Of a DNA stretch of 48,096 nucleotides, positions 34,823 through 36,061 are shown in pieces. Where the stretch lies: positions 1 through 48,096 of IMG/VR virus record IMGVR_UViG_3300037492_000387, one strand, 5' to 3'. The translations under genes and the position numbers were made by a program. Position 1 is the first letter of the stretch. Each line of letters opens with the position of its first letter. The notes below the pieces were generated by a model. It was not told the DNA's origin. It was given only the letters and a program-made list of their open reading frames with translations, and searched no databases. The DNA comes from a virus.

Positions 34823-36061
34823 ATGGTTAATAAAACGAACGCAATTGGAATAAATTCTGATGTTATATATGTAGACACACTGGGGGTAGAATGGGTTTCG
34901 AGTAACACCTCGCCCGCATTACGCCGAATTGATGAAAATGCGTATCCTTTTAGTATGGGTTTGTTTGGTGGATCAACGTGGTTTCAATTGCATCCCACGT
35001 ACTCCAATATGAGACGATGTAATGTTGCTGACAACGGGACTGTAAATGCATATCACGGAGATGCAGCATTTGCGTACGACGGATCAAATGGACAGGTTAT
35101 GGTTCGAGTCCCGAAATTTTGGTATAAATCATATAATTCCGGAACTACGTTTAGATGGTGGATTTCCCCTGTAGCAAAATCTGGATTTTCCGTGCATCCG
35201 GCGTTTATTCGCGATGGTGTCGAGCATGACGAATTTTATTTTTCTGCTTTTGAAGGATGTGCTTATGATGTTTCGGGCTCGGCCTATATTACAAACGATG
35301 GTGCAGTAGATTTTGCAACAACGACTGGGGATAAACTGTCGTCAATTGCTGCAGCAAAACCAATGTCTGGGAAGAATAATGTTGCTTTTTACATCGCCAA
35401 CGCACGCGTAATTGCACAAAATCGAGGGTCTGGGTGGGAACAGCAGACGTTTAATATGACTTGTGCTATTCAATTGCTATATTTAATTGAATACGCAAAT
35501 TATGATTCCCAAACAATGATTGGGCGTGGTGTTGTAGATATTACAGATGATGGATCTACCAATATGTCCGTAAACACCGGGTTTACGGCGGGCTCGGGGG
35601 CTGGGGGCGTAGATCTTGGAAATGATACTGGATCAAATTCTACGTCGAAATCAATAAGTTATAGAGGAATTGAGAATTTTTGGGGTAATATTTGGGGGTT
35701 TGTAGATGGGATTAATGTTAAAGCAGATTATAATCCGTGGATTGCAGATTATGACTATGTATCAGATACATTTACCGGCCCTTACGTAGATACGGGGTTA
35801 ACGCTTGTTAATGGGGATGGGTATGTCAGTAACATAGCGTACGGCGCGGGATGTAATTACGGGTGGTTACCGTCTGCAGTAAGCGGATCGAGTTCAACAT
35901 ATTTGTGTGATCAGTATTATCGAGCGGCAGGAAATAAAATTGCGTTGTTTGGTGGCTATTGGAGCGTTGTCTTGGGTGGGGGCGCGTTCTGTTGGTATGT
36001 GAATTGTGTCTCTTCTATTGTTGATCGTACTATTGGCGCTCGTCTCACATTTATAGCTTGA
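34823..36061 (+). CDS. C-type-lectin-fold receptor protein with DGR-type variable C-terminus (412 aa)
   Basis: The C-terminal half has the CLec/formylglycine-enzyme-like pattern of DGR targets: [42 protein letters not shown], then [38 protein letters not shown], matching the generic variable-protein ending LFGGxWxxGxxAGAFxxxLNxxSSxxxxxIGARL. The last 94 bases of the variable part have just 9 adenines, as adenine mutagenesis would give. The gene is more AT-rich than the virion operon. It is likely a host-recognition tip. No reverse transcriptase was found. Confidence 0.8.
35951..36044 (+). other. Putative DGR variable region (adenine-depleted)
   Basis: The segment codes [19 protein letters not shown]...IGARL. 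It ends in GGCGCTCGTCTC at the place where the conserved end (IMH-like) of other variable regions lies. Adenine is 9 of 94 bases, far below the surrounding gene. No template repeat was seen elsewhere by eye. Confidence 0.6.

Follow-up and report, generated by a model that had tools for sequence, protein, structure and literature searches.

The closest described counterparts of the locus analysed here are the variable proteins targeted by diversity-generating retroelements (DGRs) in tailed viruses, such as phrog_5302, TaqVP and the Mtd protein of Bordetella phage BPP-1. It has in common with them the C-type-lectin fold, a variable region (VR) at the extreme C-terminus and variable codons derived from AAY. 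In the textbook DGR arrangement the target gene is followed by a repeat with mismatches at adenines and then by a reverse transcriptase (RT). In contrast, the genome that carries our locus has neither a template repeat (TR) nor an RT.

Orphan VRs are already known, and our locus is a new, clean member of that kind. For DGR fragments without RT in nanoarchaea it was left open whether they are a “fossil” or “diversified remotely” (Paul et al., 2015; PMC4372165). These fragments likewise combine a VR of adenine-directed history with the lack of an RT, but our locus lies in an apparently complete virus genome, its cassette boundary is defined by comparison and RT stumps are found in its kin. ANMV-1, a virus of methane-oxidising archaea, carries a complete DGR cassette together with the target gene (PMC4372165) and differs from our case in this completeness; the likeness, a methane-related archaeal virus with a DGR target gene, is drawn from the literature. 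For crAss-like phages, complete as well as fragmentary (“silent”) DGR cassettes are described (PMC12386605), so that intact DGRs exist beside degraded ones in a single group of viruses. These are, however, bacterial viruses, and in tblastn their tail proteins matched only weakly. The Methanosarcina virus MetMV (MK170447) encodes a target homologue with 36% identity and no RT in its complete 67.8-kb genome; this homologue is more distant, and the likeness rests on the target gene and the absence of RT. With the gene at 43200-44768 (L187), MetMV would be a second case of an orphan target in a methanogen virus. Roux et al. (PMC8144416) state that remote DGR targets are not caught by their search; cases like ours are therefore missed.

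The target gene and its virus

The window, i.e. the whole stretch of 48,096 nucleotides analysed here, is a virus record from IMG/VR that is apparently complete, as a 127-bp direct terminal repeat lies at its ends; its earlier description as a closed genome is therefore reasonable. The features on which the argument depends are the following:

1-127, no strand: direct terminal repeat, left copy (right copy at 47970-48096)
31545-32918, plus strand: tail fibre protein, part of the target's module
33971-34822, plus strand: collagen-like (G-x-T) tail-fibre stalk protein, ending one base before the ATG of the target
34823-36061, plus strand: DGR-type variable protein (target), phrog_5302 tail protein, intact ORF of 412 aa, assigned by phrog_5302 match, model and TaqVP match
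35939-36052, plus strand: VR as aligned to the TR of relative L137, core about 35945-36046, mismatches concentrated at template A
36062-36085, plus strand: 24-nt junction where relatives hold TR and RT (about 1-1.6 kb), with only an RBS-like GGAGGTG inside
36086-36487, plus strand: small partner gene of 133 aa, found after the RT in DGR-positive relatives, 32-42% identical to the partners in L014, L145, L150, L153, L144 and L022

Within this module a glycosyltransferase gene (32903-33970) stands between the tail fibre and the collagen-like fibre, which is followed by the target and the small gene. The glycosyltransferase belongs to family 2, contains TPR repeats and could modify the fibre.

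An earlier note, made from the sequence of the window, had proposed that the ORF at 34823-36061 encodes a DGR-type variable receptor protein, and the assignment to the DGR-type variable proteins holds. The ORF matched phrog_5302, a tail protein, at E 1.5e-82, and no Pfam family. An AlphaFold2 model based on 98 sequences (pLDDT 94), which replaced a poor earlier model from 12 sequences (pLDDT 46), predicts a C-type-lectin fold and places the VR at its C-terminal end. Its best match among solved structures is TaqVP, a DGR variable protein of Thermus aquaticus (VIA-align Z 28.2, rmsd 2.7 over 266 residues). Far lower scores were obtained for TvpA (Z 12.7) and Mtd of phage BPP-1 (11.7), with formylglycine-generating enzymes at about 11-12. 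The ORF is thus confirmed as a DGR-type variable protein by its sequence, by its fold and by the TR and RT that accompany its relatives. In L144, collagen-like repeats and the tip domain, the latter as the C-terminal part, are fused in one protein of 1479 aa, whereas stalk and tip are separate, neighbouring genes in the window. By analogy with Mtd, this stalk-and-tip architecture suggests that the target acts as a receptor-binding tip.

Concerning the host, the portal protein had a single match, to vir524 (Methanomicrobiales; 32%, E 1e-42), and so had the capsid protein, to vir249 (Methanobacteriales; 23%). The terminase matches were mixed, with vir524 (43.6%) among bacterial phages. Portal and capsid thus back the earlier guess of a methanogen virus, and judged from these proteins a methanogenic archaeon is the likely host, its order being uncertain. 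Relatives of the whole virus were sought by terminase, where the best contigs were just 54% identical, and by capsid protein, for which IMG/VR held none. Elsewhere in the genome, two tandem paralogues (6293-7450 and 7516-8586) have about the first 120 residues in common (MKFAPHWQNRIIES...), a part that looks ParB-like by eye, and differ in their C-termini, which carry a DNA N6/N4 methylase in one and DUF4417 in the other. Besides, a protein with a caspase domain (Peptidase_C14, E 4.5e-26) is encoded inside the virus genome at 5517-6296.

DGR layout of the relatives and the adenine signature

Protein scans of IMG/VR and of bacterial and archaeal genomes yielded about 140 related loci, numbered with an L in this work; on the genome contigs, the target scan hit mostly Clostridia and no archaea. 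Most relatives have a near-repeat of the target's 3' end directly downstream, and the two copies differ exclusively or almost exclusively where the downstream one has an A (per 80 bases, 20 of 20 in L001, 19 of 19 in both L005 and L014, 17 of 17 in L137). In the DGR-positive relatives this TR is followed by an RT whose motif reads YMDD or YCDD. Because the relatives show the textbook arrangement, the window ORF, whose homologues have a VR and its cognate TR, is a DGR target by descent. The RTs of L014, L137, L150, L151, L153 and L145, the clade nearest to the window's target, have YCDD as catalytic motif and not YMDD.

An RT lies just downstream of the target in 59 of 98 aligned relatives, and 33 of the 98 were scored as RT-less, a figure that includes the wrongly scored L116, whose target ORF runs into the RT. 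On the tree, the presence of the RT switches about 20 times (22 as scored), and the window sits in a supported clade of 12 members, six of which are DGR-positive. In several DGR-positive pairs the gene bodies diverge by 0-1.3% and the VRs by 5-17%. We also found a strongly conserved TGCC-NCT-TGGCA-AAACA element (a small hairpin plus AAAACA; TGCCNCTTGGCAAAACA), present in about 24 of the first 66 loci some 180-330 nt past the target, for instance at +238 from the gene end in L014 and +184 in L005. Located downstream of the TR, it is probably part of the DGR RNA, and we know of no published defining DGR feature of this type. The element is absent after the window's target.

The segment 35951-36044, which the earlier note had picked out as poor in adenine, indeed has exactly 9 A among its 94 bases, the lowest number anywhere in the gene, whose mean is 24.6 per 94. 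When the codons of the target gene were resampled, 9 or fewer A in 96 bases occurred at P=5e-5. Genome-wide, 0.19% of 94-base windows, in five places, are equally A-poor, so that A-poverty by itself is not decisive. As the window's own TR is missing, we measured the adenine signature against the TRs of relatives. When the VR of the window is compared with the L137 TR, mismatches affect 24 of the 34 A positions versus 20 of 80 others (p=7e-6), and each of the 11 codons that read AAY in this TR has T or C as its last base in the window's VR (P about 0.001 given the gene's third-base usage). Together with the A depletion, these adenine-directed substitutions bear out the claim of past diversification at template adenines.

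The ratio of A content between VR and gene body is 0.32 in the window, compared with a median of 0.33 in DGR-positive loci and a range of 0.21-1.03 in RT-less relatives. Since the RT-less L106, L117 and L124 show no A depletion at all (ratio about 1), the signature appears to decay without an RT, and its undecayed state in the window points to either a recent loss or continued templating from elsewhere. A similar picture is seen in RT-less relatives with a close DGR-positive counterpart: the VR of L007 differs from the TR of L005 at 27 of 36 A positions and 4 of 83 others, and the VR of L157 from the TR of L152 at 29 of 36 and 4 of 75, respectively. In these comparisons 75-81% of the A positions differ, and the four non-A mismatches lie near the 3' edge. 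The RT-less pairs L006/L007 and L138/L139, although from different samples, are identical over the whole compared contig and therefore cannot show whether their VRs still change.

The site of the TR-RT cassette

In the DGR-positive L014, L145, L150 and L153 the genes are ordered target, TR, RT and small partner, and the same order was found independently, via the small gene, in L209, L211, L215 and L218. The window's partner gene directly follows the target, starting 24 nt past its stop codon, so that exactly the TR-RT cassette is absent. Target and partner also occur without an RT between them in L144, L022 and L210 (gap of 4 nt in the last), and L146 shows the short arrangement relative to L137 with a different partner family.

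The earlier note had reported that the genome contains neither RT nor TR, and our searches agree. The RVT_1 profile gave no match in the window, a profile built from 16 DGR RTs of the relatives found no RT or fragment at E≤10 even with stops read through, and the junction between target and partner holds no RT remnants. An ungapped comparison of both strands of the window gave no TR candidate, while a similar detector did recover the TRs of several control loci. Beyond the window, we also looked for a TR that has A wherever the VR differs, as that note had suggested, but none in IMG/VR fitted two degenerate VR-derived patterns at the strictness used, in a search that may have missed records very close to the window; the only pattern match, L101, is the TR of an unrelated target. 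With TR and RT both absent, and the downstream hairpin-like element as well, the window gene is separated from its mutator.

Several relatives document what happens at this site. In L022 the space is taken by an HNH_3 gene, behind which the final ~33 RT codons persist in frame, and L167 retains target, TR, a C-terminal RT stump of ~30 residues and the small gene; these stumps demonstrate cassette loss in those kin. L149 and L157 have another gene in place of TR and RT, with flanks 92-95% identical to DGR-positive L152 in L149 and a downstream flank about 90% identical to it in L157. This replacement gene resembles a homing endonuclease by eye and has no Pfam match. Between such close viruses, DGR cassette and endonuclease-like gene appear to be allelic. 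Considering the layouts of L210, L146, L022, L149, L157 and L167, we conclude that the cassette was lost repeatedly at one site.

The genes lying exactly at the TR-RT site of RT-less relatives are found at 11141-11758 in L149, 3002-3682 in L157, 10718-11482 in L022 and 6828-7415 in L008; apart from the HNH_3 endonuclease of L022 they lack a Pfam match, and that of L008 looks similar by eye to those of L149 and L157. In L167 (11057-11600), the TR has 16 of 16 mismatches per 80 bases at A only, despite the RT stump.

A literature search that covered few subscription papers found none on cassette loss at a fixed site or on its exchange with an HNH gene. As far as the searched literature goes, fixed-site removal, exchange with HNH-like genes and a clock based on adenine decay are undescribed, and as sequence-based proposals they rest on the relatives more than on the window.

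Probable cassette loss and its alternatives

We consider it probable that the window gene encodes the receptor-binding tip of a methanogen virus that became fixed after a recent loss of the TR-RT cassette. The ORF would form a C-type-lectin tip on the collagen-like stalk of a tailed virus infecting a methanogenic archaeon, with a C-terminal ligand-binding region (35939-36052) once written by a DGR: in copying the TR, the RT would have introduced errors at A, and the resulting cDNA would have replaced the VR. The cassette, situated between target and partner in the relatives, may then have been lost in one piece from the lineage of the window, so recently that the mutational signature is still fresh, leaving the target as a fixed receptor-binding variant. 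Two observations speak for cassette loss, namely that what is missing is precisely the TR-RT segment at a site where relatives have one, and that two relatives retain RT stumps; as the window junction holds no RT fossil, we infer the loss in this particular lineage from the signature and from kin. Loss and freezing are the default since stumps in kin and fully decayed members are both found. The counterpoint to freezing is that the window's VR signature is as fresh as in DGR-positive viruses, which diversification in trans would also give.

The earlier note had left the choice between supply in trans and a frozen VR; site comparison and RT stumps now favour loss followed by freezing. Supply in trans, in which the virus keeps only the VR and obtains RT and TR from the host, a co-resident provirus or a co-infecting virus, appears unlikely. 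It would account for the undecayed signature of the window (ratio 0.32, 11 of 11 NNY codons) and for the RT-less L007 and L157, whose VRs match the TRs of DGR-positive relatives at nearly all non-A positions, as templating in trans would produce. Besides, a prophage of Ruminococcus bromii (L120) has TR and VR but lacks a cis-encoded RT, and the bacterial genome around it contains another DGR-like locus. However, no TR able to template the window's VR was found in IMG/VR, the RT stumps in kin represent simple decay, and targets survive without a mutator in RT-less kin whose signature is erased (L106, L117, L124). If diversification in trans by the DGR of the host or of another resident virus were true, DGR machinery would be a shared resource that viruses can borrow.

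An assembly artefact, with TR and RT dropped by the assembler or DGR-positive and DGR-negative strains merged, is very improbable. VR/TR repeats do break assemblies and the window is a single metagenome contig, but a VR-TR collapse would delete the spacer only, leaving in place the RT on the far side of the TR. In addition, the partner gene lies behind a clean 24-nt gap and has an RBS-like sequence of its own, and the same arrangement recurs in the independent contigs L210 and L146. Still less credible is that the lineage never had a DGR and that the motif merely reflects the common C-type-lectin fold: RT-less members are scattered on the tree, which itself gives no direction, but the adenine-site excess, the NNY codons and the A depletion contradict this reading, as they need past A-directed mutagenesis, and half of the window's supported clade is DGR-positive.

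If the TR-RT cassette was indeed lost, sequence alone would show that TR and RT of a phage DGR behave as a cassette that can be removed from one constant position, between the receptor-binding gene and its partner. The decay of the adenine signature, from an A ratio of about 0.3 towards 1, could then serve as a rough clock for the time since diversification stopped. In the window this clock reads about zero, so that the virus and its host would offer a direct test of settling on one receptor variant versus borrowing a mutator.

In this context, the R. bromii prophage belongs to strain YE282 and shows, at 11056-11400 of L120, a target and a TR with A-specific mismatches. Its VR had no match above a shuffled control among the RT-bearing loci of the same genome, where L193 combines an RT with an A-specific repeat pair of a sequence unlike the L120 VR. 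L120 is a possible cultured test case for the supply of an RT in trans.
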